Shown one piece after another: positions 20,761 to 46,376 of a stretch of 64,000 bases of DNA. Both the position numbers and the translations under genes were made by a program. This DNA is from Rhabdobacter roseus. Its GTDB lineage: Bacteria > Bacteroidota > Bacteroidia > Cytophagales > Spirosomataceae. The notes beneath the pieces are model-generated. The model was not told the origin of the DNA and did not search any database. It saw only the letters and a list, made by a program, of their open reading frames with translations. The stretch's first letter is position 1. Each line of letters starts with the position of its first letter. The stretch covers positions 558,001 to 622,000 of the forward strand of contig NZ_JACHGF010000002.1 of NCBI RefSeq assembly GCF_014202275.1. The letters are read 5' to 3'.

Positions 20761-20847
<87 letters not shown>

Positions 20848-20864
20848 CAAAATGCCTTTAAAAG

Positions 20865-20894
20865 CCCGCTATACGCACAGTATAGCGGGTTTTT
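20865..20894 (+). terminator. Terminator of tRNA-Ser
   Basis: CCCGCTATAC pairs perfectly with GTATAGCGGG around a 5-nt loop and is followed by TTTTT (20890-20894). Confidence 0.9.
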
Positions 20895-20965
20895 AGCATT
20901 TAATGTATCCTATTTTGTACCTTAGGGTTAATAATTGGTGTATCCTAATTCAGAAAATAATAAAT

Positions 20966-21726
20966 ATGAGAATTTTAAGTGAGTACGAAAAAAAACTTTG
21001 CAATAAAATTTTAGGAGGAAGTACTGATAATAATTTTCTTGCAAACGTTATTGATAGCGATTTAGATGGCAGTAAAATTGAAATAAATAAACAAATAAAA
21101 CAGTAACAATATACTTTGATCATGGGACAGAAGAAAACATTCCTATATTTGATCTAGTCAGGGTACATGATGTTTTAAAGGTCATTGTTACTGCAATAAA
21201 ACTTATTAAAGATCTAGAAAAAGAGTCTCTTTTAATTTTATACTCTAACTCCCAATTTGATAATACCTTCACTTTTGGTCCAGGATCAGACATTATAAAC
21301 TTTTTGGGGTATGATATACCTGATATTGATATTTCCAATAACCTAATTGATCTTTGCACCAAAAACATAATTGTAACTGATGAATTTAGAAGATTTGTAA
21401 AAAGTGGATACATAGCGCGTGATGAACAAAGGTTCACGAAACAAATAAAAACATCTATTAAATCACTCACAATATCAACTTTCGCTTTATTATTGTCAGT
21501 TGGGTTTAATGTATATAATACGTACCAAAATTTAAAGGAGAAACCTAATATTACTACTTTAGAAAAAAAACAAATAGACACATTAGTACACCATCTTCAA
21601 CTACTTCAACAAAGTTTAGATAGTCTTAAAGAAGCATCTACGAAAAAGGAGCATATTCAAAGTCAAGTATATAAAGAGCAAAAAAACCAAGACCAAGTAA
21701 ATCCAAATAGATTTATTAAAAAATAA
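20966..21726 (+). pseudogene. Frameshifted gene for a C-terminally membrane-anchored protein
   Basis: From the ATG at 20966 the frame encodes MRILSEYEKKLCNKILGGST ... SKIEINKQ and stops at 21104-21106. The next frame is open from 21091 without a start (TVTIYFDHGTEENIPIFDLV ...) and runs to 21726. Joined near 21091-21104, within the A-rich tract AAATAAATAAACAAATAAAA, they give a protein of about 250 residues. The second half has one membrane helix (STFALLLSVGFNVY) followed by a Gln/Lys-rich coiled coil. No family is recognised. This is a one-base indel, a sequencing error in an A-rich stretch, or less likely programmed slippage. Confidence 0.7.
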
Positions 21727-21909
21727 GTACGCCTGTAAATATTTTTTAAAGGACATAACATTTTTTGCCCTTTATGCCTCCCTAAACCCCTTCTATAAGG
21801 AGGTGGTTTCATGGATTGATCGCACGTCAATATATATTTATGGCAATACCTTTTGAAGAATCTTTTTATGCCTATATTAAGTATCTATTAAAATAAAAGC
21901 ACTTATAAA

Positions 21910-22584
21910 ATGAAAATTGAAGAAAAAAAGAAGGGTATAATTGGCCTCCTCCTTTGGCTAATTATTTTCGGGGTTGGACTCGCCATTTACGCCCTTTTTT
22001 TCAAAAAATATGATATTCTTGTTAGCTCATTGGCTTTAATTATCTCTACAATATCTGCATCATTTGCCTACGAAGTAATTTTTCGAGATGCAATTAATAA
22101 ATTACCTCATGTAATAGTTGAATTTGATGGAGAAAGCAGGTATCAAATTTGGCAATTAGTTTTTAAAAACATAGGTGGAAGTACGGCTTATAATATAAGA
22201 TTATCTTGGCACAAATCATAATACATTACTACCATTATTCAACCTTTAAATAATGAAAATGAAGTAATTTCAATTCATAAAGAAGAATTATTCAATAGAA
22301 TAATTTGCTTAGAAAAAGGAGCTAATCATTATATTTGGATCGATACAATGAAACAATTCTATGAACGGAATAGTCCTGCAAATTTTATCGCAAGGATTTC
22401 TTTCGATGATCATCCATTTAATGGAACTACTAGATATATAGATATACCATTATCAGTAGAAGAACATCGTAGAACCTTGTATCATACAAACGAAAAGACA
22501 TATACTGATTTTAAATTCCAGAAAATACCAAAAATCCTTGAGGATATAGTTAAAGAGCTAAAAAGAATTAACAAAGATTCATAA
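21910..22584 (+). pseudogene. Membrane protein gene interrupted by one in-frame stop
   Basis: The frame from the ATG at 21910 encodes two N-terminal membrane helices (GLLLWLIIFGVGLAIYALFF and VSSLALIISTISASFAY) and a soluble part (HVIVEFDGES, WQLVFKNIGGSTAYNIRLSW), then meets TAA at 22219-22221. The same frame continues without any further stop to 22584 (TTIIQPLNNENEVISIHKEE ... LKRINKDS), giving 224 codons in all. The FKNIGGSTAYNI element is typical of small membrane proteins with a beta-sandwich of unknown function. It is probably a recent nonsense pseudogene; an independent downstream start at 22348 is less likely. Confidence 0.75.
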
Positions 22585-22621
22585 CGGTATTATTGATCCG
22601 TGAGTTAGTTTATAAAGCCTC

Positions 22622-22676
22622 CCCGTGCGGCGTCCGCTCCTGGAAGGAGGGACTGAGTGAGCGGACGCCGCGCGGG
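22622..22676. repeat. GC-rich 18-bp hairpin
   Basis: GCGGCGTCCGCTC (22627-22639) pairs perfectly with GAGCGGACGCCGC (22659-22671). Five further outer pairs, one of them G-T, extend the stem to 18 bp around a 19-nt loop. It is the only GC-rich block in about 3 kb of AT-rich DNA. No U-tract follows, so it is not a standard terminator. Confidence 0.8.
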
Positions 22677-22714
22677 TGTAAAGAGCACAAAACTCACATC
22701 CCTAAGAAAAATAT

Positions 22715-22826
22715 TTACAGACTTACTCACTCATCAATAAAGGGAAAGCCATCAAGATTTTTACAAGCTGATTTAAGAATTAATAACTAATTATCACTTT
22801 TTATTGATGTGTGAGTAAACCTGTAA
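22715..22826. repeat. 27-bp imperfect inverted repeat pair
   Basis: Left arm 22715-22741 begins TTACAGACTTACTCACTCAT and right arm 22800-22826 is its reverse complement with about three differences; 58 nt lie between them. Such an arrangement fits the ends of a miniature inverted-repeat element or a long RNA hairpin. Confidence 0.65.
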
Positions 22827-22975
22827 TTGTTTTCCCACTTTAGAGGCCATAAGCCCTTTACACTCGGTAAGGAAAGCCACCCCCTTAGTCCCTACGTAGG
22901 CAATAGGCTTTCCCTCTAAAAAGAAAGTTTCACAAATTAATTAATGCAGAAACAACTTAACATTCGCATATTATA

Positions 22976-23761
22976 ATGAACATTCAAGCTCATGGAACTT
23001 TCATTATTGCTATTATTTGTCGAGATGGCATTTTAATGGCCTCAGATTCAAGGTCCGCTTTCACCTTGGATCATGATGAATTAAACGAATTTGGAAGAAA
23101 AAAACATACAGTTTATGCCTATTATGATAATTCCAAAAAAATATTTCCTATTGGTAATTTTCAAATCGGCTTCATCGGGGTCTCTATGATGGGGAATAAA
23201 TATTTCAGTGAAATAACTAGCGACTTTTCTAAAAAACAAAAAGACTTGTTTTATGCAGAAGAAACCTTTGAACACTTTATAAACTATTTGAAAAACGATT
23301 TAAATATTGCTGAAAATACAATTTACGATGAGAACCAATACATTATTGCTGGTTACGAAAATGAATGTCCTGTAATTTTTGGACATGCTTATACAGGAGC
23401 AGTAAAAAATATACAAATTGGTGGTGCCATATACTCCGATTTAGATTTTAAGCCTTTTTTAACGAAACCAAATGATGTTGGACTTTATTGCAAGGATTTA
23501 GCGCCCTATTTGGAAGCTAATATTCGCAAATATGCAATCTATAAAAATGACAACATGATTGGCGGTCCTTTTTATATAATTCAAATCAATCCAGATAACT
23601 CGACAACTACAATTAAACAATTTAAACCTTACTACCATAAAACCTACAAAGAAATGGCAGAATTAATATTTAGAAATGAAATTAAAATGACTTACTTATT
23701 TCAAAACTCTAAAGAATTACTTTTTAATACTTTAATAGAAGGAATAAAACTCGGATATTAA
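22976..23761 (+). CDS. Orphan proteasome-like Ntn hydrolase
   Basis: The 261-residue product begins MNIQAHGTFIIAIICRDGIL then MASDSR. This matches the start of proteasome beta subunits: a Gly before Thr8 (the N-terminal nucleophile after self-cleavage), a strand, a turn RDG, and D24, which is position 17 counted from Thr8, the conserved Asp of the family. A Lys block KKIFPIGNFQIGFIGV (K54/K55) resembles the Lys33 region, with about 15 extra residues before it. The rest alternates strands and helices as in that fold. No ATPase or second subunit is encoded nearby. A free-standing peptidase or amidase is possible; the substrate is unknown. AT-rich, in the island. Confidence 0.65.
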   Translation: MNIQAHGTFIIAIICRDGILMASDSRSAFTLDHDELNEFGRKKHTVYAYYDNSKKIFPIGNFQIGFIGVSMMGNKYFSEITSDFSKKQKDLFYAEETFEHFINYLKNDLNIAENTIYDENQYIIAGYENECPVIFGHAYTGAVKNIQIGGAIYSDLDFKPFLTKPNDVGLYCKDLAPYLEANIRKYAIYKNDNMIGGPFYIIQINPDNSTTTIKQFKPYYHKTYKEMAELIFRNEIKMTYLFQNSKELLFNTLIEGIKLGY

Positions 23762-24387
23762 TCAGGCGAGTATAATACATAGTGATCACTGAGGTAGACT
23801 ATAACACTATTGGCTTATAAATTATTCTTTTTAATTTCTGGATGTAAAAACACCTTATAGTTCTTATCAAACTTATTCATATTAACAATATACTATTACT
23901 ATTTAGAAACACCCCTGTTTTAAGATGGTTCTAAATCATCTCAATGAAGCTAACTTTTGTAGTTTTATGATTGGGATACTGAATAACAAATAGCCGCAAT
24001 TCCCCTTTTTCATCCGGCACCAAATACCAGGGTACCATCAAATTCCGACGTATATAGATAGGGATTCGGCGGTTCTTCCACCGGGTTTGATGGGTCATAA
24101 TACGGGTAAAGGCCGCTTCTCCGGCCTGCTTTCCTGCTTCCATTGCTGGGCCATGGATTAAAAAAGTGTCACTCTGATTCCCTCTCTCCTACTTGAAATT
24201 AACCTTATTCCCAGTAGGTACTTTTGAAGTAACAAAAGCTTGCTCTTTGGTTCGGAGTGACACGTCCATTTGCAGTTGATGCCCCTTCTCCTTCTCTACC
24301 AGTCGATGGCCGGAATGATGCTGCCTGAATGCAACTCCAGGCGCACCAAGATACTTTCGTTAGGCTTTCAACGGTTATTCAATCTAC
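23762..24387. other. Island border region, degraded coding remnants only
   Basis: The first 170 bp are AT-rich with no feature. From 23931 on, minus-strand frames with protein-like composition but repeated stops are visible (see the separate entry). GTAGGTACTTTT at 24215 is the first RRGTACYY word after the island. Confidence 0.5.
23931..24191 (-). pseudogene. Probable remnant of an unrecognised gene
   Basis: A minus-strand frame from an ATG at 24143 encodes 70 residues (KNRRIPIYIRRNLMVPWYLV, KGELRLFVIQYPNHKTTKVS) with protein-like composition. The frame stays open upstream to a TAG at 24189-24191, and beyond that stop the same frame again reads coherently (QMDVSLRTKEQAFVTSKVPT). This suggests a longer gene broken by at least one stop. 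No family recognised. Confidence 0.3.
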
Positions 24388-24792
24388 TCAGAGCTCCACG
24401 CCGAGTAATTTTTGGCCTAGTTCATGCAAGGCGGTTTCTATTTTCTTCACCTGGGCCGGGCGAGGCTGTTTTAGCCCTGAGGCGTAATGTTGTAGCTGTT
24501 TACGGTTGATACCCGTTAGGCGCGCTACGCCGGAATAGGGAATTATGTCTTTCAGCTCGTGCAGCAGAGCAGAAACATCCAGTTTAAACTCCAATTCATA
24601 GTCTCTTTTGAAGGTATCAGGGATTGGATCGCCGTCCGCTAAGCTACCTTCTACGTGCAGAGCCACCGCTTCGGCTATATTATCCTTAATGGCTTCAAAA
24701 GTAGCACCCGTCGATATACATCCGGGCAATTCAGGGAGGTAGGCGTTGTAATTCTTGCCTGTATGTGAAATAATTACCAAGCTCTTTTCCAT
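24388..24792 (-). CDS. hicB: HicB-type antitoxin with C-terminal HTH
   Basis: The 134-residue product has the HicB partial RNase H-like fold in residues 1-75 (YNAYLPELPGCISTGATFEA, DNIAEAVALHVEG). A helix-turn-helix follows near the C-terminus (GVARLTGINRKQLQHYASGL). It neutralises HicA by blocking its RNA-binding surface and, through the HTH, represses the operon. It lies 23 bp after hicA on the same strand. The palindrome upstream of hicA is the likely binding site. Confidence 0.92.
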   Translation of the reverse strand: MEKSLVIISHTGKNYNAYLPELPGCISTGATFEAIKDNIAEAVALHVEGSLADGDPIPDTFKRDYELEFKLDVSALLHELKDIIPYSGVARLTGINRKQLQHYASGLKQPRPAQVKKIETALHELGQKLLGVEL

Positions 24793-24815
24793 AATGTTTT
24801 AAAGGAATACGAAGT

Positions 24816-25010
24816 CTATTTCAAATCTGCCTGTTTCAAGATAGAAGCTACCACAAAGTGATCCAGTTCGTGATTTTTTCCATGATCCGGTACTGTCACT
24901 TTCCCTGGCTTCGTCTGGTGGCTGTACTGCCTGTGGCTACCGCGCTGGTTTTTAAGGTACCAACCGTCCGCCTCCAGCATTTTGATAATATCTTTTACTT
25001 TTTTTCTCAT
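24816..25010 (-). CDS. hicA: HicA-type mRNA interferase toxin
   Basis: The 64-residue product from the ATG at 25010 has the double-stranded-RNA-binding-like HicA fold: KDIIKMLEADGWYLKNQRGS, with the catalytic His in RGSHRQY, then GKVTVPDHGKNHEL. HicA cleaves mRNA when free of HicB. An in-frame TTG nine codons upstream lies inside the promoter region and is rejected. Order toxin-antitoxin is the common hicAB arrangement. Confidence 0.92.
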   Translation of the reverse strand: MRKKVKDIIKMLEADGWYLKNQRGSHRQYSHQTKPGKVTVPDHGKNHELDHFVVASILKQADLK

Positions 25011-25034
25011 CGAAGCGTCTTCATGCTCGCTGTA

Positions 25035-25059
25035 CAAAGATAGCCAATTGGCTATCTTT
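25035..25059 (-). promoter_or_regulatory. hicAB promoter box and 24-bp palindromic operator
   Basis: Bases 25036-25059 form a perfect 24-bp palindrome (half-site AAAGATAGCCAA). Its hicA-proximal end contains TATCTTTG on the minus strand (25042-25035), an exact TAnnTTTG promoter box placed about 25 nt before the hicA ATG. A repressor bound to the palindrome would cover the -7 box, consistent with HicB autoregulation. Confidence 0.78.
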
Positions 25060-25160: not shown

Positions 25161-25505
25161 CTACCCTCCCACGCCCGCCGCCGCCATCAGGTACTCGCCG
25201 TAGGCCGTTAACTGGTCGAGGATGGGCAGGGCGCGCTGGGCTTTTGCGGTGAGCGCGTACTCTACGCGAGGAGGCTTTTCGCGGTAGAGGGTGCGGGTAA
25301 TCATGCCCTTTTTCTCCAGCTCACGCAGCTGGGTATTAAGCATTTTGTGGGAGATGTGAGGAATGCGCTCCTTCAAGTCGCCGTAGCGAACGGGGCCGTG
25401 GCGGAGGCTCAGCAGGATGGGGATTTTCCAGGTACCTCCCAGGTGGGCCATGGCAAATTCCACGGGGCTGTAGTAAAGCCGGTGTTCGTGTCGGAAATCT
25501 TTCAT
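25161..25505 (-). CDS. HxlR-family regulator
   Basis: The 114-residue winged-helix protein shows the HxlR pattern: CxP-less start YYSPVEFAMAHLGGTWKIPI, then LLSLRHGPVRYGDLKERIP, HISHKMLNTQLRELEKKGMI as recognition helix and YREKPPRVEYALT as wing. The Cys near residue 13 typical of redox-sensing HxlR members is replaced by Ser, so direct thiol sensing is unlikely. No target gene is obvious; the neighbour on the same strand is a polytopic membrane protein 70 bp upstream. Confidence 0.92.
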   Translation of the reverse strand: MKDFRHEHRLYYSPVEFAMAHLGGTWKIPILLSLRHGPVRYGDLKERIPHISHKMLNTQLRELEKKGMITRTLYREKPPRVEYALTAKAQRALPILDQLTAYGEYLMAAAGVGG

Positions 25506-25575: not shown

Positions 25576-26979
25576 CTACCTTTTATCCTTTTTGGGCAGC
25601 ACCTTTCTCAATCCGGGATCATCCAACATGTGTTGCAGTCGTTTGTGATCCGGGTAGGGTATTTGAAAGCCCGGTTTATCGAGGACCGAGGGATCTCCAG
25701 CCTTGAGGTACGCCTCCACATTTTCCGTCTGGATCAACCTGATTTCGTGTTCTTTCCGCATGATCTTATGGTCATTCTTCGTATGCTTCTTATAACTGTT
25801 CAATAGTGCGCATATGAAAAAGAGCGCAGCGAATCGGAGCCCCCACCGGGTACCTGTCCTGTCCCCAAGTACCTCCGGCGCGCGAAGCACAAACCAGGTA
25901 TTGGCCGCCAGACCCAACAAAAGAAAGTCGGTATAACGGGGAGGTAAGTGGAGAAGATTATGGCCCCGGCCGTAAGCCAGAGCCATCCCTTGCATGGCTG
26001 TCCATACCAAACACCCCAGCATCAACAGATCCGTTTTTCCCATGAGTCGACGCCCCAAAAGCATAGGAAGTGCTACCAAAGCGGGTAGCCACATAACACC
26101 ATAGCGCAGGTTGTCTTCGCTAAAAGGCCAGGCCATCACCCGGATGACCGCTTCCATGAATTCCGTGGCGTTTTCAGCGCGCAAGGCTTGGTGGCCCATG
26201 TTATAGGGCATGGTCCAGTACGCCAAGGCTGCCATCAAAACGAGCAGCAAGATGAACCCCATCGATTTGAAAGTCATTTGGCGCTGCACCAAGGCCCTTG
26301 ACCCATACACCGCCGCCACGGCGAGCGGGGTCAGCAGGCCGGAAGCGAGGGTCAGCATGCTCAGCAAAGAGAGACCCAGGATAAGAAAAATCGACCAGCC
26401 TTGGTCAGGCCGGTGGACCGCCAGCGCCAGGGAAGAAAGGGTAAAGACCTGAATGAAATAAAACTGGCTCTGAAAACCAATGAGGATATTCTCCCACGAA
26501 AAGGGCAGCGAGGCTCCGGCCAGGATAACCGCCACCAGCAGCCATCGCACACCCTGAATCTCGCCCTCCTTGTAGAGTAGCCAAAGCAAAAGTAGGGGTG
26601 TGACGGCACTCAGCGGAATATTGAGGCGGGCTTCGTACAAATTATTCCATGAACCGCTCAGCTCGAAGCAGAGAAGGGTCAGCAAACGGGTGGGTAGTAT
26701 ACGGTGCTCATTATGGGCGGCCCACAGATCAGACAAACGCAAAGTACCCTCGGTCCAGGGCTTTAGTAATTTTGCCCATTCGGCATCCCACTGATCCCAA
26801 AAGGGAAGCGCCACGGCATACTGCTCGACATAATACCAGCGCGAAACGACAATGATCGACGCTCCGAAAATAAACAGAAAAATCCACTTCGGTTTCGTCC
26901 CTGCGGGCTGTCCCTGGGTCGTAGTAGCAGGCGTAATGGGTTTGGGGCGGCGCTGACTTTCGGGTCGCAAATCTTTCAT
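25576..26979 (-). CDS. Polytopic membrane protein, possibly GT-C-like
   Basis: The 467-residue product has a basic, Pro-rich N-terminus, then about ten membrane helices. A short loop after the first helix carries PFWDQWDAEW and later HNEHRILPTRLL. An acidic pair in the first outer loop is how GT-C glycosyltransferases place their catalytic residues. The charged C-terminal 60 residues are soluble. Large membrane proteins with the WDQWD and NEHR blocks occur in many bacteria and are mostly unassigned. Donor and acceptor cannot be inferred. Confidence 0.65.
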   Translation of the reverse strand: MKDLRPESQRRPKPITPATTTQGQPAGTKPKWIFLFIFGASIIVVSRWYYVEQYAVALPFWDQWDAEWAKLLKPWTEGTLRLSDLWAAHNEHRILPTRLLTLLCFELSGSWNNLYEARLNIPLSAVTPLLLLWLLYKEGEIQGVRWLLVAVILAGASLPFSWENILIGFQSQFYFIQVFTLSSLALAVHRPDQGWSIFLILGLSLLSMLTLASGLLTPLAVAAVYGSRALVQRQMTFKSMGFILLLVLMAALAYWTMPYNMGHQALRAENATEFMEAVIRVMAWPFSEDNLRYGVMWLPALVALPMLLGRRLMGKTDLLMLGCLVWTAMQGMALAYGRGHNLLHLPPRYTDFLLLGLAANTWFVLRAPEVLGDRTGTRWGLRFAALFFICALLNSYKKHTKNDHKIMRKEHEIRLIQTENVEAYLKAGDPSVLDKPGFQIPYPDHKRLQHMLDDPGLRKVLPKKDKR

Positions 26980-27104
26980 TTTCTAAAATATACCGCTGAT
27001 AACCAGTAAAGTACCTCCTTTTCGCTTTATCGGCAAAAAAGTATATAAAGAGAAAGGAAGGCGCGAATCTACTAGCTTTGTGCCAAACTTCCCCTTCACT
27101 ACCT

Positions 27105-27827
27105 ATGCACCCCAAAGAATGGATGACCATCCCGGTACTACCCTGCCTTTCGCTCGACGAAACGCTGGCCTTCTGGCAAACATTAGGCTACCAAGTGACT
27201 TACCACCAAAAGAGCCCGTATCCGTACGGCGTCGTAGAGCAAGGTGGCTATGCGCTGCACTTTAGGCGGGTGAAAGGTCTGAATCCGGCCCAATCAAACA
27301 GCGGCTGCCTGGTGATGGTTACGGATGTGGAGCGGGTGCACCAGGACTTCTCGCAGCGTCTGCGCGCGCAACTGGGCAAGGTATCTAGCACGGGCCTGCC
27401 GAGGCTATCGCGCATGAGGCCGGGACAGAGCCGCTTTACCGTTACCGACCCGGCTGGCAACTACGTGATCTTCATTAACCTCGGCGAGCAGGATACAAAG
27501 ACCTACCAGGAAGCCGACCATCCGAACCTCAGCCCGCTGCAAAAGGCCATCGCCGTGGCGGTACGCCTGCGGGATTTCAAAAATGATGATCCCGCTGCCG
27601 CCAAGACACTCGATGTCGCGCTTCGGCGCGCCCACGACGAAAGCCGGGTAGATACCGCCCAGGCGCTGCTCATGAGGGCCGAATTAGCCCTCCAGCTGGG
27701 CGATCTGGAGCGTGAACACACCTGCCAGGCCGAGCTCCGCACCCTCCGTCTAAACCCGGACGAAAAGTACCTTTTACAGCATAAACCGGACCTGGCTCCG
27801 CTTCTAGCCAAGTACCTACCGGAGTAA
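27105..27827 (+). CDS. VOC-fold (glyoxalase-like) protein with helical C-terminal extension
   Basis: The 240-residue product has a VOC domain in residues 1-125: VLPCLSLDETLAFWQTLGYQ, EQGGYALHFR, GCLVMVTDV and RFTVTDPAGNYVIFIN. It resembles bleomycin-resistance-like binding proteins more than true glyoxalases. The last 110 residues are helical with a TPR-like ring (AKTLDVALRRAHDESRVDTA, ALLMRAELALQLGDLE), an unusual fusion. The ATG at 27105 is chosen. A TAGCTTTG box lies at 27073-27080. Its last 29 codons are duplicated at 31827. Confidence 0.85.
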   Translation: MHPKEWMTIPVLPCLSLDETLAFWQTLGYQVTYHQKSPYPYGVVEQGGYALHFRRVKGLNPAQSNSGCLVMVTDVERVHQDFSQRLRAQLGKVSSTGLPRLSRMRPGQSRFTVTDPAGNYVIFINLGEQDTKTYQEADHPNLSPLQKAIAVAVRLRDFKNDDPAAAKTLDVALRRAHDESRVDTAQALLMRAELALQLGDLEREHTCQAELRTLRLNPDEKYLLQHKPDLAPLLAKYLPE

Positions 27828-28134
27828 GACGTTTAATCAGGCCCGGGCCATTTACAACCTTTGGCTCTTTAAATGACTCCTTGAAAAAAAATGAAGCCAT
27901 GAAACGATTGGTCCTGGCCCTACTCCTACTGGGCAGCCTAGCTGCCTGCCGCCTTTTTGAGGCTGAGCCCAAAGAACAGGCTGCTATCATTGAGTACTAC
28001 GACTACTCCAAGTGCGGCTTCTGCGGAGGGTGGTTTGTCAAAGTGGGTGAAGCGCGTTACCGCGCCGAAGTACCTCCTCCCTACGACCAAAATAATACGC
28101 TGGTCTGGATTCGGTACCGGCCCGATGAGCGGCC
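27738..28134 (+). repeat. 397-bp direct repeat, copy 1
   Basis: This segment, covering the end of the VOC gene and most of the small lipoprotein gene, is repeated at 31827-32223 with an exact offset of 4,089 bp, no net indels and a modest number of substitutions. Together with copy 2 it brackets the M43 metalloprotease gene. Confidence 0.9.
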
Positions 28135-28162
28135 AAGAGCATGGATTTGCGGGGAAATTTAG
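27899..28162 (+). pseudogene. Truncated copy of the small Cys-rich lipoprotein
   Basis: The frame matches the lipoprotein at 31988 for about 80 residues, from the signal peptide (lipobox LAAC) through CGFCGGWF and RYRAEVPPPYDQ to YRPDERP. It then diverges into RAWICGEI and stops. The loss of the natural end at the repeat boundary (28134) shows that this is the damaged copy. It may still be expressed and lipidated. Confidence 0.75.
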
Positions 28163-28383
28163 TGCAGAAAATAGTATGCTTTGTAGACAAAGAAGGAGTA
28201 ATTTGTATTCATAAACATCTTTCATAACTAATGTTATGGTCTATTTAATTAGGTATATGGACTTTATTTTTTGCTATCAAAAAGCGATAATGCTTTACAA
28301 ATATTGGTAGCTAGGGCAGTTTTCGATAGAGCTAAATAATCGATATTTTATAGTACCGTAAAACTAACTTATTCATCCTCATC

Positions 28384-31300
28384 ATGAAACATATCGCTCT
28401 ACTTTTACTTACTTCCCTAACTATTCGAGTTGCGGCGCAAGCCCCCGTCATTTCTGATAGCCTGCTTCCTTGCGGCGTAACTGACTCTTTCCTTACAAAA
28501 CAGATCGACCCACAGGTATTAAAACAAATGAACTCCCAGTGGGAAGAATATTCCAAACGCTCTACTGCCAAAGGGCGGCTGTCGGCCGAGGATCCTGTAC
28601 TAGTAGTACCTGTCATATTCCATATCGCCCACCGGGGTGAAGCTTTGGGCAGCGGCTCCAACCTATCGGAAGGACGTATTCAAGCGGCCTTGGCAATCCT
28701 GAATAACATATTTAGAGCCCGCGGTAAATATGCCTCTGCCAATGACACACGCATTGAATTTGTGCTGGCCAATTGCTCCGGCATTGACCGAGCCGATGCC
28801 TCCGGGGTACCTAATTTTTTGAATTTAGGAGTCAATTATTACGACTACAATCAAATCCAACAGGTAACAGCCCTCTTTGGCACCTACCAGGACAAGGTTG
28901 TTAATATCTATGTGAGCCACTCGATTTCCGGAGCCTCTGGCTTTGCTTATTATGGCGGAGATATTTTTATTACAACTGGCGAATTTCCAAATGCAACAGG
29001 CTACAATGCCTCGGCTCGGGTTTTTGCTCATGAAATGGGCCATAGCCTATTTTTGCATCATACTTTTCAAGGAGATAATTCCTGTTCGGGCTGCCCAAGC
29101 GAAAATGTGATCTGCCCGGTAAATACTAATCCTCTCACGGATGGAGATCAGGTAGCTGATACCTCTCCCCACCGTGTTCAAGATTTGGGTTTCGACACGC
29201 CCGAGACTGCTTTGAACCCTTGTACGGATGCACCTTTCGGTATTGGCACGATCAGGAACCACATGGCTTATGGTAACAATGCTGATCGTTTCACGCCCGG
29301 GCAAATCGCTCGGATGAGATTCTTTTTAGAAACCTATCTGACTAAGTGGATCTATTCCGATGCCATCCCTACCCCAAACAATCAGCTTTCGTTGTGGTCA
29401 GTGCCAGCTTCCGTCTGTGCTAATTCGTCGGTTACCGTTGGGTTTAATAATAATTCTGGAAGCTCTAATCCGGTATTCCTTATTCAAAAGGGTGATGACG
29501 TGGTTCAGTACGTTGATATTTCTACAAATCCAGCCAGTTTTATCTTTCCCGAGAGTGCATTCGGCTCGATTTATTTTAATCTAAGCAGCGGCAACGATTA
29601 TCGAATACGGGTCGTAGCGGGCTGTAACAGCCAGCTTTCACAAGCCATTCAAGTAAATAATGGTGCAATATATGCCGCTCTTATAGTCGATGCTAACAAC
29701 CAGCTCCTGCCTAACACGGATGATGATCAAAATATTTCTCTTAGTCGTTGCCCTGGTTCATCACTTACGCTGAAAGCTCGGCTAACCAATCTGCAAAATA
29801 ACATTGAGGTTCCCTTACCCGAGTCCGATTTGACCAATTTTACCTATCAATGGACTTTGGATGGAGCCCCTTTGGCAGGAGCTACGGGCATAAGTTACGC
29901 TGCTAGTGGCAATGGCGTTTACCGTTATGCCGTCACGAGCTCTCTTTGTACGAGTCAGAGTAAAACCTCAAAATCCGCTACCCTCAGTTCCAATGCAATG
30001 GCTAGTTCTACTACTAGTGGTGCTTATGGTGGCCGTTTGCCCCTCGAGCGCCAGTGCACAGGGAGTACTGTAAATCTTTATTCGACCTACGCTAGCAACT
30101 CGGCAAGCTATACCTGGTACAAAGATGGCATTGCAATTCCCGGTGAAACCAGGCGCACCTTCATAGCAGGAAACAAGGGCACCTACCGAGTCATAGCTAG
30201 CGATGGATCATGTATCATTTCCGTACCGGGGGATGATGGTGTAGCTCTTAATTTTTCCAGTGTGCTGGAAAATCATATTTTCACTAGAAAGCTTACAACA
30301 AGTGGCTTTATTGAAGTAAAAGACAGCTTGGTTTGTAGAGATTACATGTTTATGTTTGGAGCTGATTTTTGGCCCGAGGGAGCAAACGGACAAAGAACAA
30401 GATGGGCTGAGGGACTTTCCTACCAATGGCTTCGCAATGGGGTTGAGATTCAATCAGCCACTTATCTGAATTATAGTACAAATCTCGAGGGTATTTATAG
30501 TTTAAGGATTCGTCAGGGGACCTGTGAGTCGATCAGTAATAGTAAGAGTCTTTACAAATCAGACAAAGCCCAGAAGCCTGAAATACTGACTCCAACTTCC
30601 TTTGGAAACGGTGTCTCTTACTACCTACATCTGAAATATGCGACAAATCAAGAGTGGTTCAAAGACGATCAGCCCCTCAATAACAGGGATGATAGTTTGT
30701 TGGTTTCCACGCCTGGCGTATACAAGGTCCGCAAAAGTTTTAGTCAATGCGCCATTGACTCCGACCCAGTGCTAGTGAGTTTTGGCAATACACTATCGCC
30801 CATGATTTCAGCCCGGGATTCTGTGCGCTTGGTTTGTAATAGTGCTTCTTCCCCGGCTTTGCTTTATTTGGAGCAAAAATTCTTTCAAAGTACTTCTGGC
30901 TTAAGCTATCGTTGGATGAAGGATGGCATTGATCTGCCCCTTTCTGACCCCTACGCCGATAAGGACACAATCCTTATATTTCAAAATGGAGTATACCAGC
31001 TACGGGTTAGCAATGGGCTCGCAAGTGGAGTTTCCAATCCCATTAGGGTCAGTTCCGTTAGTAACCAGACAGTTCAACTTTCTTCGCTAAACGGGCAGCT
31101 TACATCCTGCAACGGTACTTCAATCCGTCTTACTTTTCCTTCAACATCCTTAGTCAACCCCGTTCTTACTTGGATGAAAGACGATGTATTAATTCCCGGC
31201 CAATCTAATTCATGGCTCAATGCCCAGCAGTCAGGAATTTACACGGCTTCTTATCAGGGCAATGGCTGTACTATTACATCGGAACCCATCCAGGTGACGG

Positions 31301-31782
31301 TGGGTGGCCCGCTTTCTTTGGCCACCCTGACGGGTAGTCAAGCCATCCGGGTCGGCGAGAATGCCAATTTACTCCTTTCATCTACGGTACAGCCTCCATT
31401 CTACTATAAATTATCCGATGGCAGTGAGTATTATCCTCAAACCAATTCTCATACAAGCGTCAAAGCACCTTCTGTTTCCACCACTTACACATTAATCAAT
31501 TTTGGCACACCCTGTGGTCTTGGCAATACGGCGGGCGTAGCACAAATTGATGTAACAAACTGTCTTGCAGGTACCACAAATTACACCCTTAACTCAGGCT
31601 TATGGAGCAATCCATATATTTGGAGCTGTGGCAGCGTGCCAACTGTACTGGATCCAGTGCGCGTAAATTCTGCTCATACCATTTATTTACAAGAGGGTAA
31701 CGAGGCTAGATCTAAAAGTATTGAGTTACAGGGGCAACTGGAGCATGGCAGCAATTCCAATTTACATATAGGCCAAAACTAA
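28384..31782 (+). CDS. Large secreted M43 (cytophagalysin-type) metalloprotease with Ig-like repeats
   Basis: The 1,132-residue product has a signal peptide ending VAAQ. It has a pappalysin-family zinc protease domain with H216-E-M-G-H220 and H226 as zinc ligands and a Met-turn NHMAY (M294), followed by FTPGQIARMR. Paired Cys blocks (NSCSGCPS) fit M43 disulfides. From about residue 330, repeated beta-sandwich units follow, with recurrent YTWYKDG, YQWLRNG and YRWMKDG strands, as in Ig-like modules of Cytophagales surface proteins. The end lacks the usual KLIVNP-type T9SS tail and instead reads GTTNYTLNSGLWSNPYIW ... LHIGQN. The gene has few RRGTACYY words, lower GC, and lies between direct repeats, all consistent with acquisition. 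Confidence 0.88.
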   Translation: MKHIALLLLTSLTIRVAAQAPVISDSLLPCGVTDSFLTKQIDPQVLKQMNSQWEEYSKRSTAKGRLSAEDPVLVVPVIFHIAHRGEALGSGSNLSEGRIQAALAILNNIFRARGKYASANDTRIEFVLANCSGIDRADASGVPNFLNLGVNYYDYNQIQQVTALFGTYQDKVVNIYVSHSISGASGFAYYGGDIFITTGEFPNATGYNASARVFAHEMGHSLFLHHTFQGDNSCSGCPSENVICPVNTNPLTDGDQVADTSPHRVQDLGFDTPETALNPCTDAPFGIGTIRNHMAYGNNADRFTPGQIARMRFFLETYLTKWIYSDAIPTPNNQLSLWSVPASVCANSSVTVGFNNNSGSSNPVFLIQKGDDVVQYVDISTNPASFIFPESAFGSIYFNLSSGNDYRIRVVAGCNSQLSQAIQVNNGAIYAALIVDANNQLLPNTDDDQNISLSRCPGSSLTLKARLTNLQNNIEVPLPESDLTNFTYQWTLDGAPLAGATGISYAASGNGVYRYAVTSSLCTSQSKTSKSATLSSNAMASSTTSGAYGGRLPLERQCTGSTVNLYSTYASNSASYTWYKDGIAIPGETRRTFIAGNKGTYRVIASDGSCIISVPGDDGVALNFSSVLENHIFTRKLTTSGFIEVKDSLVCRDYMFMFGADFWPEGANGQRTRWAEGLSYQWLRNGVEIQSATYLNYSTNLEGIYSLRIRQGTCESISNSKSLYKSDKAQKPEILTPTSFGNGVSYYLHLKYATNQEWFKDDQPLNNRDDSLLVSTPGVYKVRKSFSQCAIDSDPVLVSFGNTLSPMISARDSVRLVCNSASSPALLYLEQKFFQSTSGLSYRWMKDGIDLPLSDPYADKDTILIFQNGVYQLRVSNGLASGVSNPIRVSSVSNQTVQLSSLNGQLTSCNGTSIRLTFPSTSLVNPVLTWMKDDVLIPGQSNSWLNAQQSGIYTASYQGNGCTITSEPIQVTVGGPLSLATLTGSQAIRVGENANLLLSSTVQPPFYYKLSDGSEYYPQTNSHTSVKAPSVSTTYTLINFGTPCGLGNTAGVAQIDVTNCLAGTTNYTLNSGLWSNPYIWSCGSVPTVLDPVRVNSAHTIYLQEGNEARSKSIELQGQLEHGSNSNLHIGQN

Positions 31783-31826
31783 CGAAGCATTTTCATGGGT
31801 TATCATGAAGTAACCACAGTACTAAA

Positions 31827-31916
31827 CGCACCCTTCGCCTAAACCCGGACGAAAAGTACCTTTTACAGCATAAACCGGACCTGGTTCCGCTTCTAGCCAA
31901 GTACCTACCGGAGTAA
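31827..31916 (+). pseudogene. Orphan 3' fragment of the VOC gene
   Basis: The last 29 codons of the VOC-TPR gene are repeated here (RTLRLNPDEKYLLQHKPDLV, then a stop) without any start. It is the left end of direct repeat copy 2 and records the duplication. Confidence 0.85.
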
Positions 31917-32223
31917 GACGTTTGATCAAGCCGGGCCCTTTCCAACCTTTGGCTCTTTAAATGACTCCTTTGGAAAAAAACGAAGCAATGAAACGATTGG
32001 TCCTGGCCCTACTCCTGCTCGGCAGCCTGACGGCCTGCCGCCTTTTCGAGGCTGAGCCTAAAGAACAGGCCGCTACCATTGAGTACTACGACTACTCCAA
32101 ATGCGGCTTCTGCGGAGGGTGGTTTGTCAAAGTGGGGGAAGAACGCTACCGCGCCGAAGTACCTCCTCCTTATGACCAGGAGAATACGCCAGTCTGGATT
32201 CGGTACCGGCCCGATGAACGGCC
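31827..32223 (+). repeat. 397-bp direct repeat, copy 2
   Basis: Second copy of the segment at 27738-28134. This copy continues into the complete lipoprotein end, so it keeps the ancestral right-hand junction while copy 1 keeps the ancestral left-hand junction. Confidence 0.9.
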
Positions 32224-33217: not shown

Positions 33218-33694
33218 ATGAAAAAGCTCCTGCTACTTTCCATCATTTCGCTGTGCCTGGGCTGCAAACGGGAAGAAGGGCCGGTCGATACCGCGGCTCG
33301 GGCGGCTGGCAAGTACCTGGTAGAGTACTACGTAGTAGATCAAGACACGCTGTGGTCGGCTCGTGGCATCAACAAGCTCGGCCTAAGCGACTTCCATATA
33401 GAGGTAAGCCGCGTCAGTGCCGATAGCGTCCTGATCACCCATCGCTCCGTCCGGAATGGATCCTCTTCGGGCTTTGGGGTGTATTCCCGCATTCAGGAAG
33501 TGGACGGTATTTTTCAGCTGGCCAATAAAATAAATTCTCACTACCTGCACGAAAGTACCATCGCCGGAGGTGTTTTTTACGAGCGTTCGGTGAATATGAA
33601 CGCAGATTCGCTGCTGAAAAGATGGGAATATGATTCGCTCAAAAGTCCGTATGAAATACCGCTTCGGGAAGTGATTCTATCGGCCCGAAAGTAG
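33218..33694 (+). CDS. Small lipoprotein of unknown function
   Basis: The 158-residue product has a lipobox LGC (Cys16) and a beta-rich mature domain (AAGKYLVEYYVVDQDTLWSA, DFHIEVSRVSADSVLI), with a rhythm like small lipocalin/fatty-acid-binding barrels of Bacteroidota. No catalytic residues stand out. It follows the TlpA-like lipoprotein gene and is probably in one transcript. Function is unknown. Confidence 0.75.
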   Translation: MKKLLLLSIISLCLGCKREEGPVDTAARAAGKYLVEYYVVDQDTLWSARGINKLGLSDFHIEVSRVSADSVLITHRSVRNGSSSGFGVYSRIQEVDGIFQLANKINSHYLHESTIAGGVFYERSVNMNADSLLKRWEYDSLKSPYEIPLREVILSARK

Positions 33695-33906
33695 GTCTTC
33701 ACTACCTTTTGAGGCACTTTCTTTTCTGAGTTTCATTCCTCTTCGCCAATCCCTAAAGGTACTCTTATTCCAAAAAAATCTTTAACAAAGTACCCCCGGA
33801 CCGTCCAACCGGGTACCTAGCCCATTACTTGAACATCACTGGCAATTCACCAGCAAGGTACTTTCCAAAGGTACCGGGCGGAGGTAGTTTGAGCTGGTTT
33901 GAATTG

Positions 33907-34014
33907 GAGCTGGTTCGTGTTTGACTTTGTGCTGGTTCGCGTTTGACTTTCGAGCTGGTTCGCGTTTGACTTTCGAGCTGGTTCGCGTTTGACTTTCGAG
34001 CTGGTTCGCGTTTG
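33907..34014 (+). repeat. 23-bp tandem repeat, about five copies
   Basis: The unit GAGCTGGTTCGCGTTTGACT plus TTC repeats at 33907, 33930 (one base short), 33952, 33975 and 33998 (partial). The last unit runs into GCGTTTGCAACGC. The middle copies are identical, implying recent expansion. Confidence 0.9.
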
Positions 34015-34064: not shown

Positions 34065-35048
34065 CTAAGCCGCCATGGCTTCCTTGTTGTACTTGGTCCG
34101 GTAGTCGACGGGCGTCATGCCGGTGCATTTGCGGAAAATATCCCGGAAGGCCTTCGTGTCGTTATAGCCCACGTCGTACATCACTTCGTTGACCGTTTTG
34201 CGGCCCGCTTCCAGCTGTTTTTTGGCCGCTTCGATCTTCACACGCTGCATGTATTCGATCACCGTGTTGCTGGTGGCTTTCTTGAACCTACGCTCAAAGC
34301 TCCGCCGCCCTACCCCAAAGCGATCGGCCAGGTCGTCTACCGTGATTTTATCCTGAAAATGCTGCTCAATAAACTCCTGGGCCTGTTTCACGGCGTCGTC
34401 GGGGTGGTCTTTTTGTCCCTGAAAAATAATAAAGGGCGACTGGCTGCTGCGGTCAATGTCGATCTCGAAGATCTTGGACGAAAGTACCGCCATTTCGCGC
34501 CCGGCAAATTTCTCGATCAGGTACAGGTTGAGGTTGAGTGACGAATAAGCCCCGCCGCTGGTATAAATGCCCTTTTCGTCGGTAATGACTTTCTCATCCA
34601 CCAGATTCACGTCCGGAAACATGCGCCGAAACTCCGCCGCCGCCATCCAGTGCGTCGCGCAGCTTTTTCCTTTGAGTAACCCGGTACTGGCCAGCAGAAA
34701 AGCGCCGATGCACAGGCTGGCTACTTCGGCCCCCTGCTTGTACTGCTGGTAGATCCACGGAAAAAACGCGCGGTTGGCCTCTACCACCGCCTGGTAGTCG
34801 CCGTGAACGGCCGGGATGATCACCAGGTCGGTTTTTTTAACCTGCGCGATCGTCACATCCGGCCGGATGCTGAACAAGCCGTTGCTGAGCTGGGCTTCCG
34901 GACTGGCCCCCACCAAGTGCACGTCAAAGAGGGGCTTTTTGCCAAAGCGCTCCAGGTACCCGTTGGCCATCGTGAACATCTTGAAGGTGGCTTCCAGGTT
35001 GCTGAGGCTGGAGTCTCCTTCCGGCAGAAGTATTGATATATGTTTCAT
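34065..35048 (-). CDS. AraC-family regulator with DJ-1/PfpI (GATase1) sensor domain
   Basis: The 327-residue product has an N-terminal GATase1-like domain (residues 1-190) with LVIIPAVHG and a nucleophile-elbow-like SLCIGAFLLAS that keeps the Cys. A C-terminal AraC DNA-binding domain spans 220-320 (DKITVDDLADRFGVGRRSFE, VNEVMYDVGYNDTKAFRDIF). Such regulators usually bind small metabolites and activate adjacent genes. The divergent gene cluster beginning at 35170 is the obvious target. The 121-bp intergenic spacer contains TACCTTTG at 35132-35139 facing that cluster. Confidence 0.93.
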   Translation of the reverse strand: MKHISILLPEGDSSLSNLEATFKMFTMANGYLERFGKKPLFDVHLVGASPEAQLSNGLFSIRPDVTIAQVKKTDLVIIPAVHGDYQAVVEANRAFFPWIYQQYKQGAEVASLCIGAFLLASTGLLKGKSCATHWMAAAEFRRMFPDVNLVDEKVITDEKGIYTSGGAYSSLNLNLYLIEKFAGREMAVLSSKIFEIDIDRSSQSPFIIFQGQKDHPDDAVKQAQEFIEQHFQDKITVDDLADRFGVGRRSFERRFKKATSNTVIEYMQRVKIEAAKKQLEAGRKTVNEVMYDVGYNDTKAFRDIFRKCTGMTPVDYRTKYNKEAMAA

Positions 35049-43604: not shown

Positions 43605-43676
43605 AAGAGGTAGTTTCGATCGGAGGCCAATATTGTAAACCATTCCTATCCATTGGGTAAAGCCAGCCTTAAAACC

Positions 43677-46376
43677 ATGAACCCAAAATCCTTTGAACCA
43701 CCCCGTTGGCTGGATCGCCTGCTGAACTGGCTCGTAGCGCCGCACCTGCGCGAGGAGGTACTCGGCGACCTGCACGAGCGCTACGCCCGGCGCGTCCGGC
43801 GGCTGGGCGAGCGCCGGGCCCGCAGCGGCTACTGGCGTGAGGTACTGGCCTACCTACGTCCCCGCTTTATCAAACGACAACCTAACCCATACCCTCAACC
43901 CAATCAAACAGCCATGATTCGTAACTACCTTAAAATTGCCTGGCGGACGCTGAGCCGGAACAAGCTCTATACCGCTCTGAATGTGGCGGGACTTACCTTC
44001 GGGATCAGCTGCTTTCTGCTGATTGGACTCTACCTTTTTGACGAACTCACCTTCGATCAACAGCACAGCCAGGCGAAACGTATATACAGGGCCATCCAGC
44101 ACAAGAAAACGCCCACCGACGAACTGACCATTGCGGCATCGAGCTACAAGGTATCCGAAGAATCGAGAAAAAGCATTGGCGAAATTGAAAACTCCGCCCG
44201 AATCCTCCGGACCGGCAGGGCCAACCTCACCAACCCGGAAAATAAAAATACCTTTCAGGAAACGGTGATGTTTGCCAACGCTGGCTTGATGAAAGTGTTC
44301 GACTTCGAAGCCGTAGACGGCGATACCAAAACCGGTTTGGATGAACCCAACTCCATCGTGCTCGTCGAAGAACTGGCGCAACGCTTGTTCAACAGCACGC
44401 AGGTGGTTGGCAAGACCGTCGAATTTGAGTTTTTTTCAAACAAACCGCTGACCATTACCGCGGTCCTGAAAAACCATCCCCGCAATTCTAGCTTCGATTT
44501 CAAACTAGCGGTTTCGGAAGCGACCATCAGCAACACCGATGACTTTGCTCAATGGACCGCAGACTGGGCCGCTCAGGATTTTATGACTTTCTTTTTGCTA
44601 AAAGAGCAGGCCAGGCCATCGGTAGTGGCCGATAAGATCACCCAGCTACTCACTACCAATGCGAAATTGGAGCCAGGTACCTCCCTAAACTATTCGTTGC
44701 AGCCGCTGGCCGATATCCATTTATATTCGGAAGGCATTGTTGATAGCGCCCGAAACTCCAACGTGGAAGCCATGAGCCAGGGCGTGTTGCTGTACGTCAA
44801 AATCTTTGCGATCGTTGCCCTTTTCGTACTGCTCATCGCCTGCATCAACTACATGAACCTGGCGACGGCGCGGGCTTCTAACCGCTCGAAGGAGATTGGC
44901 GTTCGGAAAGCCAGCGGAGCGTTTCAGAGCCACATCATCCATCAGTTTCTGACCGAGTCGCTGGTCGTCACTATCATTTCTTTTGTTTTGGCTTTAATGT
45001 TCGTTAATGTACTGCTTCCTTCTTTCAATGCTTTTACCAACAAGGAACTCTCGCTGGGAATCCACACCGACTACCGAATCTGGCTTTATGCGTTTCTGGC
45101 CCTGGTGGTCACAGGCCTGCTGTCGGGTAGTTATCCTTCCCTACTTTTATCCCGGTTCAAGCCGCTTTCGTTACTAAAAAATCTGAAAACCCAGCCCAAA
45201 GGTAGTTGGTCCATACGGCAAGGGTTGGTGGTGTTCCAGTTTACCATTTCGGTAGTGATGATGGTGGCCACGATTGTGCTTTTCCAGCAGGTGCGGTTTG
45301 CCACTACCAAAAACCTGGGTTTTAATCAGGAGTTGCTGCTGGTGGTGGACATCAACAGTCGTAAAATTCGGAGTGCAGCCGAAACAATTAAAACCGAATT
45401 TAGCCGAATCCCGTCGGTCCAAAACGTAGCGGCGACTTCCCGCGTACCGGGCGAATGGAAGATGATCCCGACGGTAAAAATCAGGGAAGTCGGCAAAACC
45501 GAGGAACATCAGATCGCCTACCTGATCGGAGCCGACGAAAATTTTGCCCGGACTTTTGAAGTACAGCTGCTGAACGGTCGAAATTTTGCGGGAAAGGGCG
45601 ATTCGGCCTCGGTACTGCTCAACGAAACCGCCGCCCGGCTACTGGGTATCACCCAAGCTACCGAGCAACTGGTGGAGATACCTTCCCGCGCCATGGCAGG
45701 AAATTACCAACCTCTCAATGACGACAGAAAACCCTTTTCGGCCCGGGTTGTCGGTATTGTCAAGGATTTCCATTTTCAGTCGTTACGCGAGAAAATAGCC
45801 CCCATGGTGTTAGCGTACGAAAACAATCCGGTGCATCCAATTGACTACTATACGGCCCGCATCGAGGGAGAGGACATACCGGCCACGCTGGAAAAAATGA
45901 ATGCGGTGCTGACCCACATTGACCCAACTCATCTGCTCGAATACCATTTTCTGGATGAACAATTGGCTAGGTTTTACGCCGAAGACCAGCGCCGGGGTAC
46001 CTTGTTGATTTGGGTGGCCTTGGCGACCATTTTCATTGCCTGTCTCGGTCTTTTTGGGCTAGCCACCTATGCCGCCGAACAGCGCATCAAGGAGATCGGC
46101 GTACGTAAGGTACTGGGAGCCAGTATTTTTAATCTCACGGCTCTGCTCTCAAAAGATTTTCTAAAATTGGTGTTCATTGCGAATGGCATTGCCTTTCCGC
46201 TGGCTTGGTGGGCCACGTCAAAATGGCTCGAAGAATTTGCGTACCATATTCAGCCCGCGTGGTGGGTGTTTGCGGTTTCGGGCATATTGTCCGTGGCCAT
46301 TGCCCTAGCCACCGTCAGCTTCCAGGCCATCAGAGCGGCCCTGATGAACCCAGCCAAAAGCTTGCAGAGTGAATGA
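43677..46376 (+). CDS. FtsX/MacB-like ABC permease with N-terminal prefix domain (first of two)
   Basis: The 899-residue product begins with a roughly 75-residue prefix (PPRWLDRLLNWLVAPHLREE, LGDLHERYARRVR) and then has the architecture of a tandem FtsX permease: TM1, a large MacB_PCD periplasmic domain, three helices with LLIACINYMNLATA and RSKEIGVRKASGA, then a second PCD and three helices with LFGLATYAAEQRIKEIGVRK. No ATP-binding domain is present, so an ATPase must be encoded elsewhere. The 4-nt overlap with the next gene shows one operon. The prefix is nearly identical to that of the second permease at DNA level, unlike the middle. Confidence 0.92.
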   Translation: MNPKSFEPPRWLDRLLNWLVAPHLREEVLGDLHERYARRVRRLGERRARSGYWREVLAYLRPRFIKRQPNPYPQPNQTAMIRNYLKIAWRTLSRNKLYTALNVAGLTFGISCFLLIGLYLFDELTFDQQHSQAKRIYRAIQHKKTPTDELTIAASSYKVSEESRKSIGEIENSARILRTGRANLTNPENKNTFQETVMFANAGLMKVFDFEAVDGDTKTGLDEPNSIVLVEELAQRLFNSTQVVGKTVEFEFFSNKPLTITAVLKNHPRNSSFDFKLAVSEATISNTDDFAQWTADWAAQDFMTFFLLKEQARPSVVADKITQLLTTNAKLEPGTSLNYSLQPLADIHLYSEGIVDSARNSNVEAMSQGVLLYVKIFAIVALFVLLIACINYMNLATARASNRSKEIGVRKASGAFQSHIIHQFLTESLVVTIISFVLALMFVNVLLPSFNAFTNKELSLGIHTDYRIWLYAFLALVVTGLLSGSYPSLLLSRFKPLSLLKNLKTQPKGSWSIRQGLVVFQFTISVVMMVATIVLFQQVRFATTKNLGFNQELLLVVDINSRKIRSAAETIKTEFSRIPSVQNVAATSRVPGEWKMIPTVKIREVGKTEEHQIAYLIGADENFARTFEVQLLNGRNFAGKGDSASVLLNETAARLLGITQATEQLVEIPSRAMAGNYQPLNDDRKPFSARVVGIVKDFHFQSLREKIAPMVLAYENNPVHPIDYYTARIEGEDIPATLEKMNAVLTHIDPTHLLEYHFLDEQLARFYAEDQRRGTLLIWVALATIFIACLGLFGLATYAAEQRIKEIGVRKVLGASIFNLTALLSKDFLKLVFIANGIAFPLAWWATSKWLEEFAYHIQPAWWVFAVSGILSVAIALATVSFQAIRAALMNPAKSLQSE

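Follow-up and report, generated by a model that had tools for sequence, protein, structure and literature searches.

How did a single protease gene come to lie between two diverged copies of one and the same gene junction? The question is raised by a locus within a stretch of 64,000 nucleotides of the Rhabdobacter roseus genome (hereafter called the window). With a probability of roughly one half, we interpret this locus as the product of an additive integration, Campbell-like and brought about by a single crossover or an equivalent process, of related DNA that carried the protease gene.

The arrangement of the locus is that of an insert flanked by direct repeats (Table 1). The two 397-bp repeats, which an earlier note on this DNA had placed around the protease gene, were confirmed and are 91% identical. 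When the genome was searched at the DNA level with positions 27000–28383, the 397-bp match was the sole non-self match (E = 1e-158), and the insert contains no long frame other than the protease gene. The distance of 4,089 bp between the copies also held up; measured piece by piece it amounts to 4089, 4088 and 4089, which points to two compensating 1-base indels. Likewise confirmed were the complementary truncations, with a whole VOC gene and a cut lipoprotein gene at the left copy, and a VOC fragment and the whole lipoprotein gene at the right one. The copies differ at 3 of 90 positions in the VOC part, at 9 of 71 in the intergenic part (two of the nine being the indels) and at 22 of 236 in the lipoprotein part. 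Given this geometry, clean deletion of the protease gene through recombination between the copies, as the earlier note had envisaged, is possible; it may be rare because the longest identical run between them is 46 bases. Apart from the 397-bp pair, the only direct repeat of at least 80 bp in the window pairs position 43698 with position 46388. It belongs to two adjacent long genes (43653–49006), probably tandem paralogues, which have in common a 250-bp segment that is 88% identical.

Table 1. Features of the protease locus and its surroundings (positions in the window)
Feature	Position	Strand	Remarks
tRNA-Ser	20761–20848		
467-aa frame between HxlR and VOC genes	25576–26979	minus	No Pfam family above cut-off
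VOC-type gene, bleomycin-binding-like, complete	27078–27827	+	From frame list; start more likely the ATG at 27105
Left repeat copy	27738–28134	+	397 bp; repeat search, genome DNA search, alignment
Left lipoprotein gene, truncated	27899–28162	+	No homology beyond 28134; lacks the conserved C-terminus
Unique insert	28135–31826	.	3,692 bp; one long gene, repeat copies on either side
Putative M43-type metallopeptidase gene, 1132 aa	28384–31782	+	Ig-like match; 65-aa C-terminal domain recurring in host genome
Right repeat copy	31827–32223	+	397 bp; repeat search, genome DNA search, alignment
VOC 3' fragment in right copy	31827–31916	+	29 codons and stop
Right lipoprotein gene, complete, 95 aa	31988–32275	+	Family with C-G-x-C-G-G-W

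The VOC protein matches bleomycin-binding families of NCBIfam far under their cut-off, and homologues of about 53% are found in Dyadobacter and others. The frame of the left lipoprotein gene departs from homology after codon 78 and soon reaches its stop. An alignment with 18 relatives revealed that the lipoprotein family ends in a W-I-x-I-x-S-I-R-x-R region, which is missing from the left copy. Two of the five amino-acid differences between the copies, N65 and L68 of the left copy, are states absent from the 18 aligned relatives, which suggests some decay of this copy after joining. Several copies of the lipoprotein gene occur in some relatives, with four matches in genome G119, three of them clustered within 3.3 kb (locus L165), and seven in G202. 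In a further genome (G231, locus L169) a lipoprotein relative is located beside frames that by eye resemble fragments of a reverse transcriptase and a transposase.

Based on its sequence, the inserted protein is predicted to be a metallopeptidase of the M43 type, and thus a putative protease. It scores 38.1 bits against Pfam family PF05572 (Peptidase_M43), above the curated cut-off of 23, and also matches an Ig-like family. The consensus zinc motif of M43 enzymes is HExxHxxGxxH; the protein studied here has HEMGHSLFLHH, in which the HExxH core and a third histidine six residues after the second are present and the glycine is replaced. The glycine is likewise lacking in five others of the seven frames whose motif was displayed in a scan of eleven loci, one of the seven having glycine at the eighth position. 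Besides the replaced glycine, this protein differs from M43 metallopeptidases as described in its long Ig-like stretch and in a C-terminal domain that occurs repeatedly in the host. That domain, comprising the last 65 residues (31576–31779), has no Pfam match at E values up to 1. It follows the pattern W..P..WSCG..PT...V.I...H.I.L and is encoded at nine places in this genome (the protease itself included), at the protein end in three other frames, and in seven of 22 other genomes searched. We consider it a candidate for an undescribed sorting domain. Since it recurs in this genome and in relatives, the protease probably represents a protein type that members of the Spirosomataceae make themselves and presumably export, and type IX secretion may be the route.

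The protease gene itself looks foreign. Its GC3 of 0.43 is the third lowest among 48 long window frames, the other 47 having a mean of 0.68 (standard deviation 0.11); these frames were chosen mechanically and may include a few false ones. The protease class as such is not low in GC3 here, because values of 0.56 to 0.72 were obtained for six large frames from related sites in the genome. A relative of the protease in genome G017 has a GC3 of 0.60. The composition had previously been called native-poor on the basis of word density; our measure was GC3, and by this measure the gene is indeed unusual for the genome. As its GC3 also differs from that of the neighbouring genes, any donor would have had to be a composite molecule.

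The 6.9-Mb genome, assembled in 27 contigs, is the only representative of its genus in the comparison set. A full-length relative of the protease was found in one of 221 other genomes of the family (G017; 52%) by a search that required an E value of 1e-45 or better, scored at most three candidates per genome and may have missed others. The 19-kb surroundings of this relative contain no match to the VOC protein, the lipoprotein or the redoxin. Protein searches of 222 family genomes, own genome included, detected the VOC protein in 14 (E = 1e-10), the lipoprotein in 30 (E = 1e-3) and the redoxin in 30 (E = 1e-20). VOC and lipoprotein genes, present in 13 and 29 of the 221 other genomes, respectively, are never neighbours there. 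Four of these genomes possess both. In G129 the two genes are on different contigs, and in G093, G128 and G158 a distance of 136 kb or more separates them. An additional VOC alignment search of GTDB contigs, in which the own genome was possibly absent, yielded 74 loci. Altogether 159 loci were compared with flanks of 1.5 to 10 kb (own-genome loci dropped, some genomes present twice). A VOC gene was seen in 87 and a lipoprotein gene in 32 of them, none had both or combined the lipoprotein with M43, and no two of VOC, lipoprotein, redoxin and M43 occurred together at any of the 159. An empty VOC–lipoprotein site was thus not encountered among the relatives examined, a set in which this genome is the only one of its genus. 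As the two genes were not neighbours in any of these relatives, the ancestral order VOC–lipoprotein, which the earlier note had proposed, would follow from the repeats in this window. An arrangement with both lipoprotein copies and the protease in conserved order, which would have spoken against that proposal, was not found in these relatives either. A thin literature search, whose terms did not include the organism name, returned no description of this locus.

In 28 of the 74 GTDB loci an HxlR-type regulator gene accompanies the VOC homologue at a distance of no more than 350 bases; the two genes are on opposite strands in 20 cases and on one strand in 8. In the window the HxlR gene (25161–25505) is 1,599 bases away from the VOC gene, and a 467-aa frame occupies the space between them. 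This frame may have been inserted as well, next to the same VOC gene, and may thereby have separated an HxlR–VOC pair. The region following the tRNA-Ser gene (20849–25037) contains a HicA/HicB pair as well as AT-rich frames with a GC of about 0.29; one of these frames weakly matches a proteasome subunit, with a score under the cut-off. Together with the possible insertion between HxlR and VOC, the AT-rich frames and the HicAB pair suggest a variable stretch of the chromosome. On the other side of the protease locus, a short tandem array with a unit of about 23 bp (33904–34014) is found between a small gene (33218–33694) and a gene named by eye as encoding an AraC-like regulator (34065–35048).

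The history of the locus can be approached through the substitutions that separate the repeat copies. Over 78 codons the lipoprotein copies show 13 synonymous and 5 non-synonymous codon differences, corresponding to a dS of 0.36 (NG86) or 0.27 (YN00) and a dN of 0.034 or 0.033, and 3 of 90 bases are changed in the headless VOC fragment. If the junction had been duplicated at insertion, both the cut lipoprotein gene and the headless VOC fragment would have been free to drift, and the observed pattern would be unexpected. Three histories were simulated, with neutral rates that were the same for the two branches; each history was run 1500 times under each of 15 settings. Runs were accepted when near all four counts (synonymous 13 ± 3, non-synonymous 5 ± 2, VOC 3 ± 2, intergenic 9 ± 3). 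At the best setting, 132 of 1500 runs were accepted for copies that diverged under selection before joining, 22 for an old tandem pair in which the VOC fragment was drifting, and 6 for a duplication at insertion followed by drift. A separate simulation of 600 runs that omitted the intergenic count gave best values of 0.090, 0.008 and 0.008, which is the same direction. The simulations therefore favour divergence before joining by about 22:1 over drift after insertion and by about 6:1 over an older tandem, in the sense of support rather than proof, given that they rest on 34 differences and author-chosen tolerances, that the two intergenic indels are outside the model, and that the model includes neither gene conversion nor a promoter in the VOC 3' end. 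This pattern suggests that most of the divergence between the repeats predates their joining. Reading the age of the insertion from the repeat divergence, as had been proposed, would then be misleading. The related proposal that the protease entered together with a duplication of the junction stands in so far as the gene lies between two junction copies; the substitution pattern, small as its numbers are, tends to speak against these copies having been alike at insertion.

Several other histories have to be weighed against additive integration. The earlier note's own reading, in which one event inserted the protease and duplicated a 397-bp target whose copies have drifted since, would directly account for the exact repeat–insert–repeat anatomy with its complementary truncations, and N65 and L68 resemble the decay it predicts for the left copy. 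Insertion with long target duplication, i.e. genes placed between long direct copies of the target, has a precedent in Helicobacter pylori (Nobusato et al. 2000, as cited in PMC1643837, PMC3154945 and PMC4978471), and the passages of those articles concerned with it describe the pattern in other bacteria. As in that system, a unique insert is located between long direct target copies here. According to the same passages, the H. pylori cases are polymorphisms between two strains and frequently involve restriction-modification genes. The R. roseus locus, by contrast, carries a protease gene, has no counterpart strain without it in the comparison set, and its copies apparently diverged before joining. 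Moreover, a broken left lipoprotein gene should have gained mostly amino-acid changes, and at no setting did more than 6 of 1500 runs approach the observed counts; we therefore regard this history as unlikely. Less improbable, while still a tentative option, is a history in which the VOC 3' end and the lipoprotein gene were duplicated in tandem at an earlier time, giving two working lipoprotein genes, the first of which later lost its 3' end to the inserted protease segment. The low dN/dS calls for long function of both lipoprotein genes, as this history provides, and the family is present in multiple copies in some relatives. On the other hand, a drifting VOC fragment should have accumulated more than three changes (22 as compared with 132 accepted runs). 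Nor did a comparison of the insert head and tail with the sequence after the right lipoprotein gene uncover a remnant of a tandem tail, either after the lipoprotein truncation (shuffle P = 0.32) or in the 44 bp that follow the stop of the protease gene up to the VOC fragment (P = 0.85), the latter offering little to test. Head and tail also showed no remnant likeness to the surroundings of the G017 relative (shuffle P = 0.27 and 0.27). If a promoter of the lipoprotein gene is present in the VOC 3' end, selection would act on the fragment and the old tandem pair would fit equally well; gene conversion over the VOC part could also mimic the substitution pattern.

A transposon, an integron cassette or an integrase-dependent element as carrier of the protease gene is very improbable, even though a single-gene insert bounded by direct repeats superficially resembles one. 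Target-site duplications are usually far shorter than 397 bp. No second frame of the size of a recombinase was seen when the frame list of the insert was read by eye, and inverted repeats of at least 20 nt are absent from the insert ends. A search of this genome with the insert head found no second copy beyond chance-level matches (best other match E = 0.26). The nearest tRNA gene of the window, that for tRNA-Ser, ends almost 7 kb away, and no repeat of at least 22 bp links it with the protease region. A transposon or island was rejected on these grounds.

Additive integration, in turn, fits the observation that two copies which evolved apart now flank a foreign-looking gene. The homologous segment it requires is present on both sides of the insert, and the lipoprotein dN is low although the left gene is now broken. 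Based on these features we propose that the incoming DNA would have carried the protease gene together with a diverged junction of VOC 3' end and lipoprotein gene from a related lineage. Donor and resident junctions would have paired within the shared 397 bp, and a single crossover would have kept both junction copies, one on each side of the cargo. The outcome would be a complete VOC gene and an intact right lipoprotein gene next to a broken left one; later recombination between the copies could drop the protease and restore an uninterrupted VOC–lipoprotein junction. We infer from the simulations that one repeat copy is donor-derived, whereas the donor, the circular or joined form of its DNA, the single crossover and the route of entry, which may have been transformation, are inferred as parts of the model. 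A donor sequence was not found among the relatives examined. A partial parallel is provided by merodiploids generated through transformation in pneumococcus (Johnston et al. 2013; PMC3784515). There, too, the entry of homologous DNA results in direct duplications, so that a segment persists in both copies. The tandem duplications described there span about 100–900 kb between repeats of the recipient; the copies of R. roseus measure 397 bp and surround a foreign-looking gene.

Because the two copies appear to have evolved apart before being brought together, the protease gene was probably acquired when related DNA recombined with the chromosome in an ordinary way, and not through a novel type of mobile element. 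The locus is a single case, for which no donor was found, and as such a modest example. It would be a doubtful generalization, which we nevertheless put forward, that additive integration through short stretches of diverged homology is a way in which cargo genes spread in the Bacteroidota, that the scar, two copies differing by the divergence of donor and recipient, is a readable signature distinguishing this process from target duplication, and that similar scars are common around genes for surface proteins. If the reading of the present locus as an additive integration is right, its repeats reflect the divergence between donor and recipient instead of the date of insertion, and the pattern of synonymous and non-synonymous changes in the truncated halves provides a simple test to tell homology-driven gene gain from target duplication.
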